A stretch of 38,425 bases of DNA. Origin: a virus. Position numbers and translations under genes: made by a program. This document shows, in pieces, positions 1-38,286 of this stretch. The notes under the pieces were generated by a model. It was given only the letters and a program-made list of their open reading frames with translations, was not told where the DNA came from and ran no database searches. The stretch covers positions 1 through 38,425 of the IMG/VR virus record IMGVR_UViG_3300038358_000011. One strand, 5' to 3'. Position 1 is the first letter of the stretch, and the number at the start of each line of letters is the position of its first letter.

Positions 1-1136
1 ACTGCTTCATCTAAGTCAACAGACTCACCTAAAGCATTCATTACATAATCGGCAACATTGTCAAGTTCTTCTTTACCTAAACCTTCACGTGATAATACTT
101 TCAATACATCTTTATGTGATTTAGCATTTTTCTTCTTAGCAAGTGTTACATACTTATCGTATCCACCTTTCTTACCAAAACCAATACCTTTTGCATTTTT
201 CATTGAAACTGCTTCTTCAACTGATTCCATACGACCTTTAACTTTGAATACTTTATATTCACCACCTACACGGTCAATTGAGTTACCACGTTTAGCATAC
301 TTATCTGCTTCTGCTTTAGTCTTGAAGTTTTTAAACTTATCATCTACTGCATTCTTATTACCATTATAGTATTGAACGTTGAAGTAGTCTTCTCTCAACT
401 CTTCTTCAAACAATGAGTCTAAGTCAGTTTCAACTGATTCGTTAATTTTAGTCCAAGTGTCAAATTGAGTTATAGGCATTAAAGATTGTTTCTTGCCTTT
501 TTTCTTAACTGTAACTTTCTTGCCGCTGACAGCTATTACCTTTAATGTTAATTTGTTCTTTTCAAATTCATCGCCAACTTTCACATCAGTATTGCCGTAT
601 CCTGCGGGTTTTGATTCTTCAAATGATTCTTTTAGTTGTGGGATTAACTCATCAAGATAATCGAGAGTCAATTGACCACGTTGTCCTTTAATATTAACAA
701 CCCATAAACCAGAATCATCTTCTAATGAGAAGTCGCCAATTGCTTTACCTTTCTTCTTAATAGTATGTACACCACGATTACCCCTTACAAGTTCTATATC
801 ACCAGACTTAACAGACTTAGCACCTTTCTGCCACGCATTTGCTATTGGAGTTTTACCTTCATCAAGTTCCTCTTCATTTAAATCGTCACCCCATTGTTCA
901 ACCCCTTCATTAGCAAGTTTCAATGCTTTAGCAACGATAGGGAAGTCAGCAAGACCTTTCTTAATCTTTTCAATCTTTGCCCATGCTGCATCAAAATTAC
1001 CTGAAGAACGTTTAGCAACCTTCATTGCTTTCTTAACTAACGAATCCTGAAACTTTGCTGCTTCAGCAATTTCCTTATCGATAGCAGTATCTTCATTAAT
1101 ATTATGTAAGTTTTTAATTGTGTTAATTAAGTTCAT
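1..1136 (-). CDS. Late-expressed virion-associated hypothetical protein, partial
   Basis: An open frame runs from an ATG at 1136 (complement) to the left edge without a stop, giving at least 378 residues; the C-terminus is outside the window. I do not recognise the family. The protein is Lys/Glu-rich, with a stretch near residue 200 (VGDEF then VIAVSGKKVTVKKKGKK) that could be a small beta-barrel. Its N-terminus has E-containing sites (NINED, EIAEA) that could fit a T4 prohead protease. It contains a peptide, ETDLDSLFEEEL (encoded at 396-443), almost identical to the C-terminal region of the next gene. A T4-type late promoter lies 36 bases upstream (1172-1179), so it is probably expressed with virion proteins. 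Gene reality is well supported by frame length and promoter; function unknown. Confidence 0.8.
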   Translation of the reverse strand, partial: MNLINTIKNLHNINEDTAIDKEIAEAAKFQDSLVKKAMKVAKRSSGNFDAAWAKIEKIKKGLADFPIVAKALKLANEGVEQWGDDLNEEELDEGKTPIANAWQKGAKSVKSGDIELVRGNRGVHTIKKKGKAIGDFSLEDDSGLWVVNIKGQRGQLTLDYLDELIPQLKESFEESKPAGYGNTDVKVGDEFEKNKLTLKVIAVSGKKVTVKKKGKKQSLMPITQFDTWTKINESVETDLDSLFEEELREDYFNVQYYNGNKNAVDDKFKNFKTKAEADKYAKRGNSIDRVGGEYKVFKVKGRMESVEEAVSMKNAKGIGFGKKGGYDKYVTLAKKKNAKSHKDVLKVLSREGLGKEELDNVADYVMNALGESVDLDEA

Positions 1137-1171: not shown

Positions 1172-1179
1172 TATTTATA
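1172..1179 (-). promoter_or_regulatory. T4-type late promoter
   Basis: The octamer TATAAATA (complement) is an exact match to the T4 late promoter recognised by gp55, which is encoded in this window. It lies 36 bases before the ATG at 1136. The gap 1137-1301 otherwise shows no gene. Confidence 0.8.
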
Positions 1180-1301: not shown

Positions 1302-1733
1302 TTAGTCTTTTTCAAACATATTCTCGAATGTATTATCTTTTAATTCTTCTTCAAATAGTGAATCCAAATCGACTGTTTCATTTGTAGCACGTGCTTTCTT
1401 GACACGTTCAACTTCATTCTTTCTGACTTGAGGCATTAGTTTCTTAGCAAGTGCTTTAATCTTAGCAGGTGTTGCTTTCTTTATTACCATCTTATCAACA
1501 GACATTTTTTCAGATGGACTTAATTGAGCATAATTTAAACCTTTCTTACCAGCAACCTTCTTACGGATTTTGACTTTGGCTGCTTTCATTGCCTTCATCA
1601 TCATCTTCTTAGGATCTGCCATACGTTTCGCCATACGTTTCCTAGACTTTGCCATCTTAGGAGCAAGACGTTTCATCAGACGACCTCTCGCCATCCTCTG
1701 TTGTATTGTCATTGGTTTACGGTTTTCTTCCAT
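1302..1733 (-). CDS. Basic Lys/Arg/Met-rich protein, putative internal head protein
   Basis: 143 residues, extremely basic over residues 1-120 (runs of K, R and M such as RMAKRMADPKKMMMKAMKAAK split over about residues 33-53), then an acidic C-terminus with DLDSLFEEEL near residue 125-134. The central part (KKVAGKKGLNYAQLSPSEK) resembles a conserved small protein of T4-like cyanophages that sits in the same neighbourhood, recalled from memory rather than searched. The start overlaps the stop of the upstream gene (TAATG at 1731-1735), so it is translationally coupled as the last gene of the late operon that begins at 6243. A DNA-binding or internal head role is inferred from charge and context only. 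Confidence 0.75.
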   Translation of the reverse strand: MEENRKPMTIQQRMARGRLMKRLAPKMAKSRKRMAKRMADPKKMMMKAMKAAKVKIRKKVAGKKGLNYAQLSPSEKMSVDKMVIKKATPAKIKALAKKLMPQVRKNEVERVKKARATNETVDLDSLFEEELKDNTFENMFEKD

Positions 1734-2611
1734 TATCTTATCGTTCCTTTTAATGATTTCTGGAAGTCGTTCTTAGGGATGTTATCAACAACCCAATTCA
1801 ATAATTGTCTCATCACCTTATCTTCAGATGTTAATGGTTTACCACGTTTCTTCAATGTCAAGTATGTGAAGTCTTTAACAACTTTTTCATTCTTTTTACC
1901 AGATATCTTAGATGTTCTATCAGCACCAGATGGTTCAAAGTACACAGTGTTCTTCTTATTATTTAAGATGACGTGTATCTCACCATTAATCTGCATCTTC
2001 TTACCTTGACCAGTAACATAATTGTAAACTGTTGAAGAAGCACCTTCGTGTGTTTGTAGCATAATATCAGAAGGAACTACTCTATCTCTATCTGCATTCT
2101 GTTTAATAGCAATTTTGTAATCAGTCAATACCCATACTAAGTGTATGTTAGCAGGGTTATAACCTGCTGCAAGTAAACGGGGCAAAAACTGAGTAACATC
2201 TTTAGTATCTTTAGCAGTAATATCAAACATAATGTTAGGTAACTTCTTTCTATCTTTAAGTTGCCCGAGCATTAAGTCAAGTGTCTTATCTTTAAGACCA
2301 AGTTTCTTAATGAACATATGAAGTTTAGCAACATCAGCAGGTTTCTTCAAGTCTAATCCTTTAACTTCAGGGTACTTTGCTTGTGTATCAGCAATCTTTT
2401 GAAAGGTTTTCTTCCACTCATCAACATCACGGACTTTAAACTTTTCCTTTTCCATAAAGTTGGATGCAGCGAAACCTTTACCAGAACCAGCACCACCTGC
2501 TAAGAAAACGATCTGTCCATCTTTACGACCGTTGTTCAGCATAATGAGTTTCTCTTCAAGGTATTCCTCAAAGAGTTTCTGTTCAGTAATAAATTCGTTA
2601 AACTTTTTCAT
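1733..2611 (-). CDS. P-loop kinase, zeta-toxin-like, with capsid-targeting-like N-terminus
   Basis: 292 residues. A Walker A motif GGAGSGKG lies at residues 39-46, followed by a DVDE acidic motif near 62-65 and an Arg-rich segment NADRDRVVPSD that resembles the lid of zeta-toxin/polynucleotide-kinase-type P-loop kinases. The substrate is not visible. The first eleven residues, MKKFNEFITEQ, match the pattern MKxFxxxIxE shared with neighbouring genes and with T4 internal head proteins, where the prohead protease cuts after (L/I)xE. It belongs to the late operon starting at 6243 and is coupled to the gene downstream by a TAATG overlap. The kinase fold is likely; the specific reaction and virion packaging are inference. 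Confidence 0.8.
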   Translation of the reverse strand: MKKFNEFITEQKLFEEYLEEKLIMLNNGRKDGQIVFLAGGAGSGKGFAASNFMEKEKFKVRDVDEWKKTFQKIADTQAKYPEVKGLDLKKPADVAKLHMFIKKLGLKDKTLDLMLGQLKDRKKLPNIMFDITAKDTKDVTQFLPRLLAAGYNPANIHLVWVLTDYKIAIKQNADRDRVVPSDIMLQTHEGASSTVYNYVTGQGKKMQINGEIHVILNNKKNTVYFEPSGADRTSKISGKKNEKVVKDFTYLTLKKRGKPLTSEDKVMRQLLNWVVDNIPKNDFQKSLKGTIR

Positions 2612-2612
2612 A

Positions 2613-2840
2613 TTATTTTAATTCTTTTGGTGCCTTAACGTCTTTCATACCTAATGAACCAAACCACTGTGATGCCATTCTATCATAGACTTGTTTTGCT
2701 TCTTTTTGAATTGTATTATTCACACCAACAAATTTCATTTGGGCATACACTGCTGCGAAATCGTTTAATGTTTTTTCTGCTTTCTTCTCGTCAAACTTCT
2801 CAATTAGGTTCTGTTCTTTTAAATCGTTATACTTAATCAT
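2613..2840 (-). CDS. Small hypothetical protein of late operon
   Basis: 75 residues, not recognised. The N-terminus MIKYNDLKEQNLIEKF resembles the short amphipathic leader of its neighbours and has two (L)xE sites (LKE, LIE), so it may also carry a capsid-targeting peptide. The rest is predicted helical (TLNDFAAVYAQMKF). It overlaps the start of the upstream gene by four bases (2837-2840, ATGA) and is followed one base later by the kinase-like gene, so it lies inside one co-translated operon. Confidence 0.65.
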   Translation of the reverse strand: MIKYNDLKEQNLIEKFDEKKAEKTLNDFAAVYAQMKFVGVNNTIQKEAKQVYDRMASQWFGSLGMKDVKAPKELK

Positions 2841-3418
2841 TTTTTCATTCCTTTTTTAACTGTTTTAAATACTGCTTGAGCATCCCCATTTGATACACCT
2901 TTAGGCATACCTGCTTTGAATGCATCGAAGTCATCCTTTGATGCGTGGTTTCTCATATCTGTACCAGAAACACCTGCCTTTCTTTCACCAGAGTTAATCA
3001 CTTCAAACTTATCAAAACTATAATGAGGTTTGGTTTTATCTTTCTGATCAACGTATGGTCTAATTCTTTTTTCGAAGTCGGCAACTCTATCACTACCAAC
3101 TACAAATGAAACGTCAGTATATCCTTGGTCAGACAACCACTCAAGTATTTGAAATGGAGTTTTCAACTTAGGGATATCCATAATAACTGCTCTAGGGAAG
3201 AACTTCTTCAAATACTTTATCTTATCTTTGTATGGTAAAGGATTCTTCTTAACATCATTAGACTGAGAAGTGAATATCATTCCTGTTCCACCCCGTGCCT
3301 TTTTAACTACGAAGTCGATTAACTCACCGTGTCCCTTAGTGATTGGATTAAAACGTCCAAACGTAAAGACAACTGGTTTGTTCTTTGCTTCTAGTAAATG
3401 TTCTTTGAACGATTTCAT
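2837..3418 (-). CDS. Cytidylyltransferase-like nucleotidyltransferase with capsid-targeting-like N-terminus
   Basis: 193 residues. VFTFGRFNPITKGHGELI near residues 17-34 is the (H/T)xGH signature of the HxGH nucleotidyltransferase superfamily (here T27-K-G-H30), and SGTDMRNH near 150 corresponds to the C-terminal ISSTxxR-type motif. Such enzymes transfer NMP to a small phosphorylated substrate; which one is not evident. Similar proteins occur in T4-like marine phages. The leader MKSFKEHLLEAK fits the T4 internal-protein pattern with predicted cleavage after LLE. ATGA overlaps link it to both neighbours (3415-3418 and 2837-2840). Confidence 0.85.
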   Translation of the reverse strand: MKSFKEHLLEAKNKPVVFTFGRFNPITKGHGELIDFVVKKARGGTGMIFTSQSNDVKKNPLPYKDKIKYLKKFFPRAVIMDIPKLKTPFQILEWLSDQGYTDVSFVVGSDRVADFEKRIRPYVDQKDKTKPHYSFDKFEVINSGERKAGVSGTDMRNHASKDDFDAFKAGMPKGVSNGDAQAVFKTVKKGMKK

Positions 3419-3735
3419 TCTTCAATCTCTCTAGGTTTACGTTTAGAACCTTTAAGTCTACTCTTTTCTGCCTTACCTCTATTTACTGAGGCATCTTCAT
3501 ATCCAACAATCTTACCTTTAACGTGAGACGCATCCATCCCCTCGTGCTCAGGTTTTCTATTCTTTCTATTATACCTGTTTAATTCGGCACGGTATGCTTT
3601 CTTTTCATCAGATGATTGAAACTTATCATACTCTTTTCTGTAATCACGTAGATGACACCACTTACATCCAGGAACTGGTTTAAGTGCTTTCTCTTCAACT
3701 ATCTCACAAAAATCTTTAAATGTTAATGGATTCAT
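3415..3735 (-). CDS. Hypothetical basic protein of late operon
   Basis: 106 residues, not recognised. A GCKWCH motif near residues 23-28 provides two Cys and a His that could bind metal, followed by a highly charged region rich in Lys, Arg and Tyr (YRAELNRYNRKNRK). The C-terminal third is basic. The start region NPLTFKDFCEIVEEK resembles the leader of neighbouring proteins, with IVE as a possible prohead-protease site. A nuclease or nucleic-acid-binding role would be a guess. It starts one base after the gene upstream ends and overlaps the next by ATGA. Confidence 0.7.
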   Translation of the reverse strand: MNPLTFKDFCEIVEEKALKPVPGCKWCHLRDYRKEYDKFQSSDEKKAYRAELNRYNRKNRKPEHEGMDASHVKGKIVGYEDASVNRGKAEKSRLKGSKRKPREIEE

Positions 3736-3736
3736 A

Positions 3737-4966
3737 TTAACCCCAATTCTTTATTGCGTTAAAATTATTCTTACTAAACTCTAATCGGTTTACTAACTTC
3801 ACCGCACTATTCGATAACGTATCGATGGCGACAAAACCCTCAGGTCCAGTAACTTTATAACCAGTTGGTGTCTTGATGAAGGCAGGTATCTTATTAACCT
3901 TCTCCATCTTCTTAATAAGTAGCAACTTAATATCAGCAATATCATCATGCCATTGTAAGGCATATGCTAACGTTCCACCAATTTTACGGTTCTTATTGAT
4001 TATATTTATTAAATCTTCAAGCGACGATTGCTTCTTCGCTTTACCCTTTTCGGTCTTTAGTTTAGCAATCATAGGGTTGTATCTCTTTCTTAGGAATTCA
4101 ATAAACCCACCAACTGCTTGTTGCTTTCCTGAAAACTTCTTACCTTGCTTAGTTAAGTCGTTGATATAAATTTTCATATTAAATGCAATCTCAGTCTTAC
4201 CAAACATAACCTTCAATGATGGTTTATCAAGTAATGACAATTCCCTCTCAGCAGATGCTAACCTTTTCTGAATGAATGCCATCTCGGCAACCGTTAAGGT
4301 GGCAGTTCCAGATACGTCTGAGAAGTTTGTGTCAGTAAACCATACGTCTTTAGTTTTCTTTAGTTTAGATATATCAATCTTAAAGTGAGCAGATAAATCA
4401 GCAATCGTATCACCACTATATGTTGTATGCCACACAACACCAACGTTTGCTTTAGTTATTTCTTTAGCAAGATCCGTCCCAGCAGGAACAGCATATGTAA
4501 TAGTATTTGGTGTGAATGTAATATATTTCTCGTCATCAATTTCTTCTTTCTTTATGTCTGATGGAACAAACATAAAGTCGCCTTGGATAATACCCTTAAT
4601 TCCCATCTTAGGAAATTCTTTAAGAGCAATTTTCATTTTCTCTGCTAGACTTGCAGCATGCCCGTGGTTCTTATCAACGTCAGCATTTGTATAATTTAGT
4701 TTAGGGTTTCTATTGAATACTGCCTTAGTTCCTACAAAGAACTTACCATTCTCAGGGTTAATTCCTGCTACGATACTTGGAGCACCGTCCACTTTTGCTT
4801 GAATGTTCATCGGTTTCTTACTATGCCCAGCAAGTGTATCGGCAACACCATTTAATATTTTAAGTGCTTCAACTCCACCTGCATAACCATCGTCAAAGAT
4901 TGCATCTTCGATGTGCTCAAGGTGAGTTAGTTTTGCTTCGTTTATTAGTGTCTTAAATCTTTTCAT
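3737..4966 (-). CDS. DUF6267-like protein with ligase-type nucleotidyltransferase motifs
   Basis: 409 residues. I recognise it as a family conserved in T4-like marine phages (annotated DUF6267, from memory). KVDGAP at residues 58-63 matches the KxDG active-site motif I of ATP-dependent DNA/RNA ligases and capping enzymes. GIIQGDFMF near 145 could be motif III, PEGFVAI at 375-381 motif IV (EGFV) and VKLVNR at 389-394 motif V. The order matches the superfamily, although the spacing between III and IV is long. The leader MKRFKTLINEAK fits the capsid-targeting pattern. The start overlaps the upstream stop (TAATG). The gene call is very secure; ligase-like chemistry is inference from motifs. Confidence 0.85.
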   Translation of the reverse strand: MKRFKTLINEAKLTHLEHIEDAIFDDGYAGGVEALKILNGVADTLAGHSKKPMNIQAKVDGAPSIVAGINPENGKFFVGTKAVFNRNPKLNYTNADVDKNHGHAASLAEKMKIALKEFPKMGIKGIIQGDFMFVPSDIKKEEIDDEKYITFTPNTITYAVPAGTDLAKEITKANVGVVWHTTYSGDTIADLSAHFKIDISKLKKTKDVWFTDTNFSDVSGTATLTVAEMAFIQKRLASAERELSLLDKPSLKVMFGKTEIAFNMKIYINDLTKQGKKFSGKQQAVGGFIEFLRKRYNPMIAKLKTEKGKAKKQSSLEDLINIINKNRKIGGTLAYALQWHDDIADIKLLLIKKMEKVNKIPAFIKTPTGYKVTGPEGFVAIDTLSNSAVKLVNRLEFSKNNFNAIKNWG

Positions 4967-6243
4967 TATTTCACGATGGCCTTGAACCCTAATTTATTTC
5001 TATGTGGGTTTGGTGCTCCACCTTGCCACTTAAAATTAAAATTAAAATTCTTAAATTTTTCACGTTTGAAGTTTAGTGTTTTCGACTTAACGTCAACGTT
5101 CATTTGCAGCAAAGTGATCGACCTTGCCACTTTAGATAATATTTTAGATGATTTGTCTGAATTCAAGACTTTAACAATAGAATGACCCATTGGTCCAATT
5201 AACACTCCGATAGGTTTTGTTAATGTAGATTCGTCATACCGTTGCCAAGTTTTGTCGTCTATATTATTTCCAAGCAATGAATAAAACTCAGATAATAAAG
5301 GTTTTAGTTCGTCAGACGATTTCCCCTTCAACCAAGAAGATAAAGTAGCAACAGACATATTATTTAATGCAATTTTAGTAACTGAACTCAATTCAATTAT
5401 AGATTTTGTATTATATATTACGTGGGCATGAATGAAACCTTCCATCACCGACATATCATTCATTGCGATAATCATATCTAGTATGTTTTTCTCTTCTGAC
5501 GTAAACTCGGCAACAAAAGTGTCGTCTTCCAACTTATCTTGTATCAAAGATGTTATATTTTTGATGGAAGTGGGAGAACCTCCTCCAGATTTAACTGAAA
5601 TAGGATACCTCAATTTACCACGAACTCCATAGAAATCGACCAAAGGTTCGTTAATTGCTTCTGGGAAAAATGCTTTATTGAATCCAATATTTTTTATCGA
5701 CCATACCGCACAACACAATTCCCCAAAATCCGCAGAGATAGTAGACAATTCGGCGGTAGTAATATCTTCAGCAACAATATCTATTTTGTTTCCCTTTTGA
5801 TTCGATTTTTCTATCAAATCAACGAGCAAGTCTTTTATTCCGTCTGAGTAGTTTAGAGTAGGAACTTTCTTCTTTACGGATGCAATGATGCCATCAGCCG
5901 TCATATCTTTTCCTGTTACATCAAATTTATCAGGAGCAAGTTCTTTTGTCTTAATAGAAGAATTGCTTCTAGTTTGATTTACAAAAAACACAGAACCTAA
6001 TTTAGAAGTGATAACATAAGTAGAATACATACCAGATAAACTTATATCAGCATCCTTCACCCTATATCCAAGTTTTTTGAAAAACCCATCAACATCGTTT
6101 CCAGCAGGAAACCTCAAGTGCCACTGTAATTTAGCACTAGAAGCATTCTTCGGCAACTTAGTTTTGCTTTTGATATCGTTGAAAATGGAGGTTCCTATCG
6201 CAGTCGCCTTTGCCTCAGAAATATAAGACTTAAATGATTTCAT
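4966..6243 (-). CDS. First gene of late operon; possible PD-(D/E)xK-type nuclease
   Basis: 425 residues, family not named with certainty. VDFYGVRGKLRYPISVKSGGG (residues 202-222, read here in two parts around L211) places D203 and K218 as in the D-x(n)-(D/E/S)xK core of restriction-like nucleases, and E175 in a preceding helix (DFGELCCAVW) could be the extra acidic residue. The leader MKSFKSYISEAK matches the T4 internal-protein leader with predicted cleavage after ISE. A late promoter is 27 bases upstream (6270-6277). The nuclease call is tentative because the usual acidic residue before x-K is Ser here. Confidence 0.75.
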   Translation of the reverse strand: MKSFKSYISEAKATAIGTSIFNDIKSKTKLPKNASSAKLQWHLRFPAGNDVDGFFKKLGYRVKDADISLSGMYSTYVITSKLGSVFFVNQTRSNSSIKTKELAPDKFDVTGKDMTADGIIASVKKKVPTLNYSDGIKDLLVDLIEKSNQKGNKIDIVAEDITTAELSTISADFGELCCAVWSIKNIGFNKAFFPEAINEPLVDFYGVRGKLRYPISVKSGGGSPTSIKNITSLIQDKLEDDTFVAEFTSEEKNILDMIIAMNDMSVMEGFIHAHVIYNTKSIIELSSVTKIALNNMSVATLSSWLKGKSSDELKPLLSEFYSLLGNNIDDKTWQRYDESTLTKPIGVLIGPMGHSIVKVLNSDKSSKILSKVARSITLLQMNVDVKSKTLNFKREKFKNFNFNFKWQGGAPNPHRNKLGFKAIVK

Positions 6244-6269: not shown

Positions 6270-6277
6270 TATTTATA
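6270..6277 (-). promoter_or_regulatory. T4-type late promoter for the 1302-6243 operon
   Basis: Exact TATAAATA on the complement, 27 bases before the ATG at 6243. It would drive six overlapping genes as one late transcript. Confidence 0.85.
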
Positions 6278-6284
6278 ATAACTG

Positions 6285-6469
6285 GATGGGGAATAGGGAG
6301 CAGTTTATAGAGGGCAGACATGCTGAGGTCTGTGGAGGGATGCGACGAAAAAACATAACAAAGGAGTTCGCATCCAACTTAAAAATAGGGTGAGCACTGC
6401 ATGACCATGATTGAGTCGTCAGGAGTATGGCAGTACTCGTGGTAGTTTTTCGGGGGAGTCTCAACTACC
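6285..6469 (-). ncRNA. Candidate structured non-coding RNA
   Basis: The stretch between the SprT-like gene and the late operon is about 48% GC by my count, against roughly a third in neighbouring genes. It holds four perfect inverted repeats: GGTAGTT at 6441-6447 with 6463-6469 (overlapping the upstream stop codon), GAGTA with TACTC at 6423-6438, an 8-bp stem at 6338-6345 with 6368-6375, and CAGAC with GTCTG at 6315-6332. No convincing ORF is present on either strand. Strand is assumed from the strong minus promoter upstream (6821-6849). It could be a processed 3' UTR or a free RNA. Confidence 0.45.
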
Positions 6470-6787
6470 AAAAGACTTTTTATATTTATCTGCTAACACA
6501 GATTCTAATTCTTCTGCTTCACGTTCATCTGATTTATCCCCTTCAGAATATTGTCTTACGTGAACCATTTCGTGACACAATGTCACAAGCATTTCTTCAT
6601 CATTTAAAGTTTCTTCAAGTTCGATGTCATATACGTTTAGTTTAAAGTTATGAAAGTCGGCTGGTTTAATACACCAACCATGAGCATTATCTTCAGTCAA
6701 ATCTCCTAGAGAAACTTCAACCTTAACACTGTCCATAATGCCTAACTCACTTCGGCAAAACCTAATAACTTTTTGAACATCAATCAT
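6461..6787 (-). CDS. SprT-like small zinc metalloprotease
   Basis: 108 residues. CHEMVHVRQ near residues 71-79 is a HExxH zinc site, and DEREAEELE about 10 residues later offers a third acidic ligand, as in SprT/minigluzincin-type proteases. It is shorter than cellular SprT (about 160 residues) and lacks its C-terminal zinc ribbon. Small HExxH proteins of this kind are common in T4-like marine phages. A Shine-Dalgarno AGGGG precedes the ATG, and a near-consensus sigma70 promoter lies at 6821-6849. The substrate is unknown. Confidence 0.75.
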   Translation of the reverse strand: MIDVQKVIRFCRSELGIMDSVKVEVSLGDLTEDNAHGWCIKPADFHNFKLNVYDIELEETLNDEEMLVTLCHEMVHVRQYSEGDKSDEREAEELESVLADKYKKSFGS

Positions 6788-6853: not shown

Positions 6854-8242
6854 TTATACTTTTAATTTACCAAATGATTTCTTTTCGCCACCAACCTTAA
6901 TAGTCTTATTAAACTGATGAGGTTCTTGTTTTGTTCCACCCATTAAATCTAACTGAGCATTTGATTCAACATCATACAACCTCATCTTAGGTCTATCAAT
7001 ACCAACCACAAAACGTTTGTTAGTTCCAGGATCGCCATATCTATTCTTCAACTGCTTAATAAGTATTTGGTCAATTGCTTCCATTTCTTCAGTAGAAATT
7101 AGTGCTAACATTAAGTCAGTCGTAGCAGGTAAACCAAACGATTCAGATGTATCTTCTAATCCAAAGTCACTGTCACCATAACCAGTTCTATTAACCTGAG
7201 TTGCTGTCACGATTGGAACATTAGATTCAACTGCTAATCCTCTTATCTCTTCAGCAATTGCCTTAACATAAGTATATGAATTCACACTAGCACCCATCTT
7301 CATTCTACTTGACATACAAATATTTAAGTAGTCGATGTAGATAATATCTGGGACGAAACCTTTCTTCAACTTCAACTCATTTAATAAGTGCCTAAAGTGA
7401 CCAACACCTGCTGATGATGTAGGATATTCCTTAACAACCATTTTACCTGATGTCTTACCTTTAACCTTAGCAATCTTTTTCTGGTATATCATCTTAGGTA
7501 TATCAGCCAAGCCATCAAGTTTAATGTTCAATAAGTTCGCATCAATACGTTCAGCAATACGTTCTTCTGCCATTTCCATAGTAATGTATAAAACGTTCTT
7601 ACCGTCTAACACATTAGCAGAGGCAAAGTGACACATTGCTAAAGACTTACCAACACCAGTTCCTGCCATTAATACTGTCAAAGACTTCTTAGGTAAACCA
7701 CCCTTAGTAATCTTATTCAGATACTCAATGTCAAAAGGCACACGTTCTTCAGTTCTATGATAAAAATCATAACGTGCATCAGCATCATCAATAAGATCGT
7801 GACCAACGTTCGGGTCAAATGAAACACTTAGTGCTTCCGATAATATTTCTGGAATTGCCCCTTTATCTTGTCCTTCTTCGTTGCCATCAATAATAGCAAT
7901 CGAATCCATAATAGCATTATATAATGCTTTCTCTTGACAAAACTTTTCAGTGGTATTAACTAACCAATCTTTATCTTCTTTCTCATCATCAATGAGAGTT
8001 CCGATATATGCACCACACCCACTAAAATCTTTTTCAGACATACCTTTGCGGTTGTCCAATTCAATTACTAATGCTTCTCTTGTAGGTAATGAATTATACT
8101 TTGTGATGAACTCATCAATTTGTTCATAAACAATCTGCTCGACATGATCATCAAAGTATTTCGGTTTTAGGTATGGTAACGTAGATCTTGCATATTCTTC
8201 ATTATGTATTAAGTTCTTTAAGATTAAGTGGGTTACATTCAT
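6854..8242 (-). CDS. 41: Replicative DNA helicase gp41
   Basis: 462 residues, close to the 475 of T4 gp41. It is a DnaB-family hexameric helicase that unwinds the replication fork and works with primase. AGTGVGKS at residues 193-200 is Walker A; DIIYIDYLNI near 290 is Walker B; ATQVNRTG fits the DnaB H3 motif. The N-terminal 150 residues correspond to the primase-interacting domain. It follows the UvsX region closely, which in this group of phages is a conserved order. No separate promoter is evident in the 29-base gap upstream, so it is probably read from the uvsX promoter at 9673-9701. Confidence 0.95.
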   Translation of the reverse strand: MNVTHLILKNLIHNEEYARSTLPYLKPKYFDDHVEQIVYEQIDEFITKYNSLPTREALVIELDNRKGMSEKDFSGCGAYIGTLIDDEKEDKDWLVNTTEKFCQEKALYNAIMDSIAIIDGNEEGQDKGAIPEILSEALSVSFDPNVGHDLIDDADARYDFYHRTEERVPFDIEYLNKITKGGLPKKSLTVLMAGTGVGKSLAMCHFASANVLDGKNVLYITMEMAEERIAERIDANLLNIKLDGLADIPKMIYQKKIAKVKGKTSGKMVVKEYPTSSAGVGHFRHLLNELKLKKGFVPDIIYIDYLNICMSSRMKMGASVNSYTYVKAIAEEIRGLAVESNVPIVTATQVNRTGYGDSDFGLEDTSESFGLPATTDLMLALISTEEMEAIDQILIKQLKNRYGDPGTNKRFVVGIDRPKMRLYDVESNAQLDLMGGTKQEPHQFNKTIKVGGEKKSFGKLKV

Positions 8243-13890: not shown

Positions 13891-13967
13891 TGGTAGCAGG
13901 ACTTGGATTTGAACCAAGGACTTCCAGGTTATGAGCCTGGATTTCTACCCGACTGAATTACCCTGCA
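13891..13967 (-). tRNA. tRNA-Met (CAT), initiator-like acceptor end
   Basis: 77 bases including an encoded CCA (13893-13891). The anticodon loop CTCATAA sits between CCAGG and CCTGG. The T arm is CTTGG-TTCAAAT-CCAAG. Acceptor bases 2-7 pair with 66-71, but position 1 (T) faces position 72 (T). An unpaired 1-72 is the hallmark of bacterial initiator tRNA. The anticodon stem lacks the full three G-C pairs and 11-24 is T-A, so the initiator call is uncertain. A stem TTTGCC/GGCAAA follows the CCA. Confidence 0.9.
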
Positions 13968-14033
13968 ATAATTTGGTGGAGGTTCATTTGGTTATAAGGA
14001 TGAACCTGCCTAATTCCTCAAATCACACTATGC

Positions 14034-14069
14034 CTATCAGGCTGCGATTGCGTAAGTATCTGCGTTTGC
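14034..14069 (-). other. tmRNA tag reading frame
   Basis: Ten codons starting GCA at 14069 encode ANADTYAIAA, followed by tandem stops TGA TAG (14039-14034). Compare the E. coli tag ANDENYALAA. The resume codon could be the AAC just upstream, since AGTA precedes it as in many tmRNAs. The stops lie in the loop of a GCC/GGC stem, as in helix 5 of other tmRNAs. Confidence 0.75.
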
Positions 14070-14130
14070 GTTTACTTTGGGTCTTACAACTATTTACCTT
14101 CTGTCACCTAGTCGATTCTAAATCAACCCC

Positions 14131-14177
14131 ATTAAGGAATACACTACACAGTGGGGGAGGATGTATAATGTATTCCT
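14131..14177 (-). other. Intervening segment of the permuted tmRNA precursor
   Basis: Linker between the acceptor CCA and the 5' G of the coding piece. Its ends are complementary (AAGGAATACA against TGTATTCCTT), extending the acceptor stem into a long hairpin, as expected for the segment removed from permuted precursors. Confidence 0.7.
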
Positions 14178-14280
14178 TGGTGGAGTTGGTGGGATTCGCA
14201 CCCACGTGTTAAATGACTCCAGTCAATAGTAAGTGGTAAATACTCTGATTAAATCATTTCCTTACCAAATTAGTAGACAG

Positions 14281-23787: not shown

Positions 23788-25176
23788 TTAAGCACTGGCA
23801 CGCTGATTACGTTGATACTCAAGGTGATGTCGGTATTCATCTAGATTCATTAAAGCACCCATTGCTACATTATGCTCTTTACGAATAATAGCACCATCTT
23901 CAATAGTACCACCCTTACTCCAAGGCGTGTCGTGTCCAAAGATAGCATCTTCAATACTCAATGGTTCACCGTCAATAGCACAACGGAAGTCTTGTTGTAC
24001 AAGCATCTCAAACTTCTTATCTTTAGTGATGGTTCTTCGGGTATCTTTATAAAGAATCGCATCATCAATATCCATCTCATGAAGATATAATTTCGCAACC
24101 TCATGTTGTTGAGATGGGTTTGAAGGATATTTAATCGCAGATCGAGCAAACGTCTTAACAAGTTCCTTAACAACCTTTGTAGTGTTACGTTCCCCAGTCT
24201 TGAACTCCCTAACGTCAATTTCATAATCAGCATTGCTATTGCCAGTTAAGTTTTTGTGTGCCTTAAAGAATTCTTCACCAAACTTTTCATGGTCTTTGAT
24301 TGCGAAAACCCTGTTACGTTCAAGCAGTTCAAACCATACTGCCTGAAAAGCACCGAAACTATTAGCATTCATCTTAGCATCAAATCCATCGAGTACCTTT
24401 AACGCATCATTAAAAAATGTATCAGTGAGTTTCTTAACTCTAGACGTGATAACTGGACCAGCATTTACGAGATCTTCAATCTCATCTAAACCTGCAGCAA
24501 CGTTACCACCACCCATAACTTTAATGAATACGATAGCAACATACTCATCCCACTTACGTCTTGGATTTACTGGTGTGTTCCAGTACAATGCTTTATCCTT
24601 ACCATCATCTTTCCTTTCAGTATTAAAGATTTTATGTTTTGTTGAAGTCGGTCCGTATTCTTTAAACGTTTTCACACGGGTTCTAATTTCTTTAGTTATT
24701 TGAGCAGTATCATTTGCCATAATCATTTCAATCTGATTAACTGGTGTTACTGTATTGAGTCTACGAAAGATCTCAGTCGATTCGTGATTGTCGCAGATGT
24801 AAACTTGGAATAACAATTTAGTAGTGTCAAATAATTCCCTTTGTTCATCGCTTAGAGAAAGGTATGTTTCTCCAGCAGTAGTAGTAAACTTGCCCTTTTT
24901 GAAATCCCTAATTGCTCTAATTCGATTTCCACCATCAATAACTAACCATTTGTAATCTTTGTAGACTTTTCGATTTTCATCATCATGCTCAATATCTCGC
25001 ACAGTGATTACACCGATTGAATATCTATTCAGAATAGAATCAATAATGCCTCGGGGTTTTTTAAGTCCAGTAGAAACTGCTGGTCTTTGACCGATTGGGT
25101 CTGGGTTGATTACTTTGTTACGGACATCTTCGATTGTGTCTTTAACTGTTTTTATTACGTTGTCGTGGTCTAACAT
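23788..25176 (-). CDS. DUF262 (ParB-like) plus HNH nuclease, GmrSD-like
   Basis: 462 residues. WLVIDGGNRIRAIRDFKKG at about 76-94 is the DUF262 signature (DGxxR), a ParB/Srx-type nucleotide-hydrolysing fold. The C-terminus has FRCAIDGEPL, then GHDTPWSKGG and KEHNVAMGAL, a treble-clef HNH nuclease pattern with H-N-H residues. DUF262 plus HNH-type domains is the architecture of the GmrSD type IV restriction enzyme, which cuts glucosylated hydroxymethylcytosine DNA. In a phage it could attack competitors, be a homing-type nuclease or process host DNA. The gene has a promoter at 25290-25318, a structured leader of about 105 bases and a terminator, so it is monocistronic. Confidence 0.85.
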   Translation of the reverse strand: MLDHDNVIKTVKDTIEDVRNKVINPDPIGQRPAVSTGLKKPRGIIDSILNRYSIGVITVRDIEHDDENRKVYKDYKWLVIDGGNRIRAIRDFKKGKFTTTAGETYLSLSDEQRELFDTTKLLFQVYICDNHESTEIFRRLNTVTPVNQIEMIMANDTAQITKEIRTRVKTFKEYGPTSTKHKIFNTERKDDGKDKALYWNTPVNPRRKWDEYVAIVFIKVMGGGNVAAGLDEIEDLVNAGPVITSRVKKLTDTFFNDALKVLDGFDAKMNANSFGAFQAVWFELLERNRVFAIKDHEKFGEEFFKAHKNLTGNSNADYEIDVREFKTGERNTTKVVKELVKTFARSAIKYPSNPSQQHEVAKLYLHEMDIDDAILYKDTRRTITKDKKFEMLVQQDFRCAIDGEPLSIEDAIFGHDTPWSKGGTIEDGAIIRKEHNVAMGALMNLDEYRHHLEYQRNQRASA

Positions 25177-37122: not shown

Positions 37123-38286
37123 CTACTTGCTGTTATCCATAAATTCTGGATAAGCAGAAGAACCAGTCTCCCACATATCAGAACCAGCAAGTTCTTCATC
37201 TTCACCTACTCTCAGACCAATAGTCTTTTTGAGTAAGTACCAGACAATTAGTGAAGTACCAAATACAAATCCGAAGATTGCACCAGTACCAACTGCTTGT
37301 CCATATAACGTAGCATCAGTATTTAAAATTGGAACCAACATTAGTCCCACAATACCTGCTACTCCGTGAACACTGATCGCACCAACTGGGTCATCAATAC
37401 CCCATTTCTCTAGCAATGCCATAGAAATAGGAACAATCAAACCACCAATCGCACCATATAATGCAGCGATTTCAGGTGAAGGTGTTAGAGGATCTGCTGT
37501 AATAACTACCAGTCCTGCTAATGCACCATTCAGAGTCACATTCAAAACGGTCTTCTTTAACCAAAGTTTTGAGAGCACCATTGCACTCAGTAAACCTGCA
37601 GCAGCCGCAGTATTAGTATTAACAAAGATTTGAGCAACTGCGTTAGCATTGTCTAATCCTAAAATACTTAACTGTGAACCACCATTAAAACCAAACCAAC
37701 CCATCCAAAGAATAAGTGTACCTAGAGCAACTTGCGTTGTACTAGAACCGTGGATAGCAACGGGATTTCCGTTCTTATCATACTTACCCTTACGTGGACC
37801 AATTAGTAGTACTGCCGCTAATGCAGCTGCAGCACCTGCCATGTGTACAATTCCCGAACCTGCAAAGTCAAAGAATCCTACTTCTGACAACCAGCCACCA
37901 CCCCAACTCCAAGAACCTTGAATTGGGTAAATCACAGCAGTAAAGATTGCTGCGAAAACTAAGAATGACCATAGTTTCTTACGTTCAGCAACAGCGCCAG
38001 AAACCACTGACATTGCTGTTGCTACAAATACTACTTGAAAGAAAAAGTCACTCATTAATGCGTGGTCTTCTGGAGCATTCCAGCCACCGTACATTAATTC
38101 GTAACCCACAAACAAGAAGGTTAATGACGCAACACTATAAAGTGCTACGTTTTTTATAAGGATCTCAGTTACGTTCTTCGAACGAACCGATCCTGCTTCT
38201 AACATTGTAAAACCTGCTGCCATCCACATCACTAAGACTGCTGAGACAAGGAAGTACAATGTATTTAAGGCATAGCCTAATTCCAT
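37123..38286 (-). CDS. amtB: Ammonium transporter AmtB
   Basis: 387 residues, close to full length for Amt (about 400-430), with roughly eleven membrane helices. The conductance histidines are both present: GSGIVHMAGAAAALAAVLLIG (H148) and ISVHGVAGIVGLM (H307). The pore Phe region FFFQVVF (F81-F83), the Trp in WSWGGGW (126-132), D140 in DFAG and the MGWFGFNGGS helix match bacterial AmtB. The C-terminal tail GLRVGEDEELAGSDMWETG is the GlnK-facing tail, with a WETG ending unlike the E. coli version. The late promoter (38329-38336), AGGAG Shine-Dalgarno and terminator make it monocistronic and late. Host-derived metabolic gene, presumably for nitrogen uptake. Confidence 0.95.
   Translation of the reverse strand: MELGYALNTLYFLVSAVLVMWMAAGFTMLEAGSVRSKNVTEILIKNVALYSVASLTFLFVGYELMYGGWNAPEDHALMSDFFFQVVFVATAMSVVSGAVAERKKLWSFLVFAAIFTAVIYPIQGSWSWGGGWLSEVGFFDFAGSGIVHMAGAAAALAAVLLIGPRKGKYDKNGNPVAIHGSSTTQVALGTLILWMGWFGFNGGSQLSILGLDNANAVAQIFVNTNTAAAAGLLSAMVLSKLWLKKTVLNVTLNGALAGLVVITADPLTPSPEIAALYGAIGGLIVPISMALLEKWGIDDPVGAISVHGVAGIVGLMLVPILNTDATLYGQAVGTGAIFGFVFGTSLIVWYLLKKTIGLRVGEDEELAGSDMWETGSSAYPEFMDNSK

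Follow-up and report, generated by a model that had tools for sequence, protein, structure and literature searches.

A T4-type capsid-targeting leader on unrelated late enzymes of a marine T4-like phage suggests a portable tag for injected proteins

The window analysed here, a 38.4-kb fragment (38,425 nucleotides) from IMG/VR record IMGVR_UViG_3300038358_000011, derives from a T4-like marine myovirus; its genes include what we take to be homologues of UvsX, DNA polymerase, primase-helicase, clamp loader, clamp, gp46/47, the late sigma factor and UvsW. Four genes of one compact operon in this window begin with nearly the same ten-residue leader. By sequence comparison, this leader is a capsid-targeting sequence (CTS) of the T4 type, and the proteins that it addresses very probably form an exchangeable set of injected enzymes serving host takeover or counter-defence.

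The operon is on the minus strand and starts at 6243, downstream of the primase-helicase gene (6854-8242) and of a short putative metallopeptidase gene (6461-6787), and its genes adjoin with overlaps or gaps of a few bases. The first-pass annotation of this DNA had reported the leaders as MKSFKSYISEA, MKRFKTLINEA, MKSFKEHLLEA and MKKFNEFITEQ, and all four are indeed present:

6214-6243, minus strand: leader MKSFKSYISE of gene 4966-6243, predicted gp21 cut before A11
4937-4966, minus strand: leader MKRFKTLINE of gene 3737-4966, predicted cut before A11
3389-3418, minus strand: leader MKSFKEHLLE of gene 2837-3418, predicted cut before A11
2582-2611, minus strand: leader MKKFNEFITE of gene 1733-2611, predicted cut before Q11

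Their common form is M-K-x-F-x-x-h-h-x-E followed, after the predicted cut, by A or Q. A strict pattern (M, a K-like residue, x, aromatic, x, x, hydrophobic, hydrophobic, x, E), devised after seeing the data, matches 4 of the 50 called open reading frames (ORFs) of the window, whereas shuffled N-termini would give 0.15; in two relatives, with an equal expectation, 5 and 6 are found, and Melnitz, C48C1 and S-CREM2 have 6, 4 and 4 versus 0.4-0.5 expected. Across 10 homologues of the first protein (4966-6243; 27-60% identity), M1, F4 and E10 never change, whereas the remaining leader positions and large parts of the body do. The four window leaders are identical at 5-7 of 11 residues, yet at merely 4-6 of 11 third-codon positions. 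Because third-codon positions match less than residues do, the leaders are not fresh copies of one DNA segment; the diverged synonymous positions disfavour a recent duplication.

In T4, the first ten residues are enough for packaging, residues 4 and 7 contributing to targeting and residues 8 and 10 to processing, and the prohead protease gp21 cleaves after (L/I)-x-E (PMC9026906). The marine leader has spacing identical to that of MKTYQEFIAEA, with which T4 internal proteins IPII and IPIII start, and retains the key positions: F4, [YLHF]7, [IL]8, E10 and mostly A11. The gp21 cut motif ends all four window leaders (ISE, INE, LLE and ITE). Putative cleavage sites in the major capsid proteins of relatives, positioned by analogy with T4 gp23, match it as well (FLSE↓AA, VLTE↓AP, LAE↓AP and ILTE↓AA), and a gp21-type prohead protease is encoded in the complete relatives examined, the window itself being a 38-kb fragment without head genes.

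Because the strict pattern had been written after seeing the data, we built a weight matrix from 27 leaders drawn from the window and from IMG/VR relatives of it, and applied it to genomes outside this training set. Matrix scores in the window and in contigs G001-G005 are not independent of training, and the independent support comes from the other genomes. When the matrix was applied to T4, gp61.1, IPIII, IPII and IPI came out as the top four of 272 ORFs; IPI, IPII and IPIII are the textbook T4 internal proteins bearing a CTS. In twelve non-training genomes, 35 ORFs score 5 or more versus about 4.5 expected. Together with the gp21-type sites and the published proteomes of orthologues described below, this blind retrieval of T4 internal proteins bears out the likeness to T4 leaders that had been noticed at first reading. 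The ORF that outscores IPI-III, gp61.1 (NC_000866 18966-19130), encodes a hypothetical 54-residue protein and is, on its sequence, a candidate unrecognised internal protein of T4.

How far the leader has spread was examined with a degenerate DNA pattern scanned against IMG/VR alongside a codon-permuted control of equal composition. The leader pattern retrieved at least 120 stretches versus 17 for the control; among the matches listed, 83 of 87 leader matches sit at an ORF start versus 2 of 17 control matches. Shuffles, control scan and ORF-start placement rule out chance similarity. Counting the IMG/VR matches listed and the complete genomes, leader-bearing bodies fall into about 70 unrelated clusters, a few of which, mostly short singletons, are probably due to chance. 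Within a single genome, too, the leader sits on unrelated bodies. Identified cargo domains include adenylate kinase, S-adenosylmethionine (SAM) lyase, RNA ligase, HAD phosphatase, DUF192, muralytic domains and protein kinase. Confinement of the leader to T4-like contigs proved a non-discriminating criterion, T4-like genes being found at 77 of 80 leader loci but also at 15 of 17 control loci, and a reading of two leader-bearing bodies (L162 and L187) as capsid proteins was unsupported (E 0.02-0.19). Two small leader-bearing proteins (L143:3736-4149 and L196:342-770) were read by eye as ADP-ribosyltransferase fragments (YHGTP... and YRGI...GVGLYLT), with no match in Pfam.

The leader also behaves as a removable unit. 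Homologues that lack it, which the first-pass annotation would have counted against packaging, do exist: P-HM2, Syn1 and S-PM2 carry leaderless versions of the DUF6267 protein (the product of 3737-4966) and of the cytidylyltransferase (2837-3418). The leaderless cyanophage DUF6267 proteins, however, start MAKNTHLEHLED or MSKNTHLEHLED, which places their beginning at the position directly following the predicted cut in MKRFKTLINE↓AKLTHLEHIED. With their beginning at that cut, they mark the leader as a discrete module added to an otherwise complete protein; the leaderless orthologues show that the leader is removable and not that it lacks a role. Between relatives, the bodies turn over and the leader stays.

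Published virion proteomes of relatives place leader-bearing proteins in particles. For S-CREM2, 52 virion proteins are reported (PMC10665884, Table 3). The five ORFs ranked highest by the matrix among the 215 of this phage are all in that list (cytidylyltransferase gp154, kinase gp14, SAM hydrolase gp6, gp13 and gp136), an overlap with hypergeometric p=0.0006 when 50 virion proteins are matched to the 215 ORFs; by Pfam, gp6 is a SAM lyase (E=2e-19). Further reports record the cytidylyltransferase/NMNAT in virions of S-SZBM1, S-SCSM1 and S-SM1, where its N-termini read MRFRQFIIEA, MKSFLQFLKEA and MKKFSAFLNEA, respectively, so that with S-CREM2 leader-bearing orthologues are found in four cyanophage virions. 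The S-CRM01 kinase is likewise reported in virions (PMC10665884); it starts MISFDQFLSEK, and its gene sits in the same operon, flanked by those for DUF6267 and the cytidylyltransferase. Conversely, the S-PM2 cytidylyltransferase, which has no leader, was not detected in virions according to PMC3037559, although that older study also missed true structural proteins, and the leaderless DUF6267 of S-SZBM1 is undetected in the virion proteome of that phage. What is said here on S-SM1, S-CRM01 and S-PM2 draws on PMC3037559 and PMC10665884. In the syntenic operon of S-SCSM1, gp089, gp282, gp281, gp280 and gp279 each carry a virion-protein annotation, although gp281 alone has a clear leader. Packaging of leader proteins is thus well supported by analysis of orthologues in published proteomes and, for the phage of the window, is presumed by extension.

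Three of these virion proteins call for separate comment. S-SCSM1 gp279 (L276 11627-11836) ends in the leader-like RTFKEFLEYIE, possibly a C-terminal targeting sequence. S-CREM2 gp12 (L069 7704-10313), annotated as 'Cas9' and likewise among the listed virion proteins of that phage, has an offset leader-like stretch, LRFASFMAEA, near its start; it is without a Pfam match, and no packaged Cas9 is claimed here. Directly upstream of it, a small gene encodes gp13, with leader MKDLHSFLTEQ.

From these comparisons we infer the following course of events. Late in infection, the leader would bind the prohead core via F4 and the aromatic or hydrophobic residue 7. Cleavage by the prohead protease gp21 would follow, after E10 of the (I/L)-x-E motif, leaving the mature enzymes in the head to be ejected with the DNA into the next host. 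There, the exchangeable set would act in the first minutes on host nucleotide or NAD metabolism, RNA or DNA, in takeover or counter-defence. Because particle proteomics of relatives finds many tagged enzymes in the virion, such phages probably carry and inject an enzyme set. For marine T4-like phages at large, we lean towards a still broader picture, in which one portable tag serves an exchangeable injected arsenal of dozens of unrelated effectors, ligase-like proteins, NAD and nucleotide enzymes, kinases, nucleases and SAM lyase among them, with hidden anti-defence roles in the first minutes of infection.

Several observations weigh against this interpretation. Cleavage after E10 is predicted throughout and no cleaved N-terminus has been seen. 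Detection in virions comes from orthologues, neither from the phage of the window nor from a close relative of it. HTVC008M has no match to the strict pattern and no good leader by the matrix, and by the matrix the leader is absent from P-HM2 and S-PM2. S-SZBM1 gp191 and gp192 and S-SCSM1 gp030 have fine leaders and are undetected in virions, although at about 105-165 residues their absence by mass spectrometry is not decisive. Finally, the S-CREM2 authors noted that abundant cytoplasmic proteins might co-purify with particles (PMC10665884).

What the tagged proteins do was considered next from the genes of the operon and its surroundings:

6270-6277, minus strand: T4-type late promoter TATAAATA, exact match, 26 bases 5' of the ATG at 6243
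4966-6243, minus strand: leader plus 415-residue orphan body, possible PD-(D/E)xK nuclease (E175, D203, SVK218)
3737-4966, minus strand: DUF6267 protein (PF19782, 362 bits), covalent-nucleotidyltransferase / RNA-ligase-like
3415-3735, minus strand: 106-residue protein with a longer and weaker leader-like start, MNPLTFKDFCEIVE↓E; orthologues begin MKTLTFKDFCEIVED and MYTFQQFIEKY
2837-3418, minus strand: NMNAT/cytidylyltransferase-like enzyme (PF01467, E=5.9e-8; phrog_3041/395 cytidyltransferase)
2613-2840, minus strand: 75-residue protein with a weak leader-like start, MIKYNDLKEQNLIE↓K; very close homologues only
1733-2611, minus strand: Zeta-toxin-type P-loop kinase (PF06414, E=2.8e-5; phrog_5268, E=1.7e-53)
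1302-1733, minus strand: very basic 143-residue protein of the same operon, without a leader here
1172-1179, minus strand: second late promoter TATAAATA, before the next gene
3-1136, minus strand: start of a 553-residue downstream gene without a leader, continuing in IMGVR_UViG_3300037807_000069

By itself, TATAAATA is common in this AT-rich window (8 found versus 4.7 expected). The two small ORFs to which weaker leaders had been ascribed do have plausible longer forms, at 3735 and 2840, resembling the longer leader of T4 IPI, but neither is individually significant. The very basic ORF 1302-1733, included among the leader-bearing bodies at first pass, does belong to the operon but has no leader here; its homologues carry one in Melnitz (MKKFSELTSELIER) and C48C1 (MLSFKQFVSEV).

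The first-pass annotation had read this cargo as a nucleic-acid repair kit that would, ahead of phage transcription, seal breaks introduced into tRNA or DNA by host defences, and DUF6267 is where that reading is strongest. The ligase-like KxDG motif on which it rested is real, occupying residues 58-61 and invariant in 16 sequences. In the same set K58, D60, G61, E376, G377 and K390 are invariant, and EGFV and KLVNR are conserved; we take these to be motifs I (KxDG), IV (EGxV) and V (lysine) of the ligase/capping superfamily of covalent nucleotidyltransferases. An AlphaFold2 model (predicted local distance difference test score, pLDDT, 76.9; leader below 50) has RNA ligases as its leading VIA matches: the Naegleria enzyme at Z 7.9 over 182 residues, just below the guide line of Z 8, a tRNA ligase at Z 7.4 and T4 Rnl2 at Z 6.9. 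Foldseek alone gave no significant match for this model and a PDB sequence search with the protein nothing relevant. A separate leader-bearing body matches RNA_ligase PF09414, and in a profile comparison of the two the aligned region is KxDG only. With moderate confidence, the model and motifs make DUF6267 RNA-ligase-like; self-adenylylation or strand sealing would be expected of a member of that superfamily.

The other three bodies fit repair less well. The HxGH nucleotidyltransferase proposed for 2837-3418 was correctly recognised: its motif is TKGH/VSGTDMR, of the HxGH-type superfamily, and CTP_transf_like PF01467 is matched at 33.4 bits versus a gathering score of 21. That family and the NMNAT annotation point to small molecules; in some phages this enzyme is fused to DUF6267. 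A P-loop kinase in the same operon would suit repair, and 1733-2611 is one, marginally matching Zeta_toxin PF06414 (24.1 bits versus a cut-off of 22.3), but it resembles a Zeta toxin and not a polynucleotide kinase. The first gene may even encode a nuclease. Of that suggestion, the motif part stands, E175...D203...SVK218 being invariant in 10 sequences, and the element order of the AlphaFold2 model (pLDDT 80.8) fits a PD-(D/E)xK core; the structural matches are weak, with HincII, SwaI and Hjc found by Foldseek and VIA for the C-terminal part (VIA Z about 4, all below 5), no significant Foldseek match for the model and nothing relevant in a PDB sequence search. From the model, a PD-(D/E)xK nuclease is thus possible and unproven. 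Of the repair kit, then, one body of four survives as RNA-ligase-like, and in other phages the cargo is mostly unrelated to repair. We therefore regard a dedicated repair kit as unlikely. The wider cargo list points to a general exchangeable delivery route instead of a single repair pathway, in which a repair role of DUF6267 is possible and not required, and NAD/nucleotide metabolism, or anti-restriction in view of the SAM lyase of relatives, would be at least as good a fit.

A second alternative accepts targeting to the prohead core and has the proteins serve head assembly or DNA condensation, not the next host. Mutants of T4 IPIII do affect head assembly, and small, very basic proteins occur among the leader-bearing neighbours; yet many bodies belong to enzyme families with conserved catalytic motifs that assembly does not need, and bodies change between relatives while the leader persists, which makes this alternative quite improbable. 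That the proteins are ordinary cytoplasmic late enzymes whose common N-terminus is a translational or other signal and whose detection in virions is carry-over, as the remark of the S-CREM2 authors allows, is hardly credible, as the S-CREM2 virion list names no polymerase, helicase or ribonucleotide reductase of the phage yet holds all top-scoring leader ORFs, conservation is at the protein level (M1, F4, E10) and not at synonymous sites, and the same signal retrieves the experimentally defined CTS proteins of T4.

An injected, CTS-addressed enzyme set has precedents. T4 IPI, IPII and IPIII, like the proteins described here, combine a ten-residue leader of the same spacing (F/Y4, hydrophobic 7, I/L8, E10, A11) and a gp21-type cut motif with unrelated bodies. 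Their bodies are small and basic, one being an anti-restriction inhibitor, whereas those here include enzymes of up to 425 residues (821 in relatives), encoded, unlike the T4 proteins, in an operon with DUF6267 found in many marine phages. T4 Alt, an ADP-ribosyltransferase, likewise travels in the head, undergoes processing by gp21 and modifies the host after ejection, although the enzyme families here are different. The Dar/Hdf proteins of phage P1 and the ejection proteins of the giant phages phiKZ and SPN3US are packaged in heads and tied to anti-restriction or takeover, as proposed here; in the giant phages they are processed by a prohead protease, as predicted here, a likeness of description and not of compared CTS. 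A further parallel lies in S-CREM2, S-SZBM1, S-SCSM1, S-SM1 and S-CRM01, whose purified virions contain the orthologous cytidylyltransferase/NMNAT and other leader proteins; the available parts of these reports name no targeting signal.

The CTS is already published, as is the proposal that T4-like phages may load various proteins by means of it; in the open-licence literature, no paper came to light that connects it with pelagiphages or cyanophages. New here are how widely it occurs, its enzyme cargo and its connection with proteins that had previously been detected in particles. DUF6267 and the cytidylyltransferase occur in 468 and 497 phage records, respectively, and the leader rule separates likely injected proteins from other hypotheticals. 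It would explain why 'metabolic' enzymes recur in cyanophage particles, and it marks the roughly 70 clusters as candidate takeover or counter-defence effectors; if the interpretation is right, the tag offers a way to search metagenomes for injected effectors by sequence. Fusions to the T4 CTS are already in use for delivering foreign proteins, so the tools for testing the mechanism in laboratory phage are at hand.

In the near-identical contig IMGVR_UViG_3300037807_000069, the operon extends past the end of the window with two more leader genes (MKSFKEHLNEG and MKSFKELLSND), after which come genes resembling known virion proteins. The motif DLDSLFEEEL occurs in two neighbouring unrelated proteins (1302-1733 and 3-1136 of the window; also L008 and L014), near the C-terminus of the basic one, and could contain additional (L/I)xE-type sites or serve as a different sorting motif. 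Elsewhere in the window, ARAGORN finds a tRNA-Met overlapping a tmRNA (tag ANADTYAIAA) at 13891-14271. By eye, the product of 23788-25176 resembles a DUF262-type N-terminus joined to an HNH-like C-terminus and is GmrSD-like. By eye, too, 37123-38286 encodes an AmtB-like ammonium transporter, with TATAAATA 42 bases upstream, and is a possible auxiliary metabolic gene.

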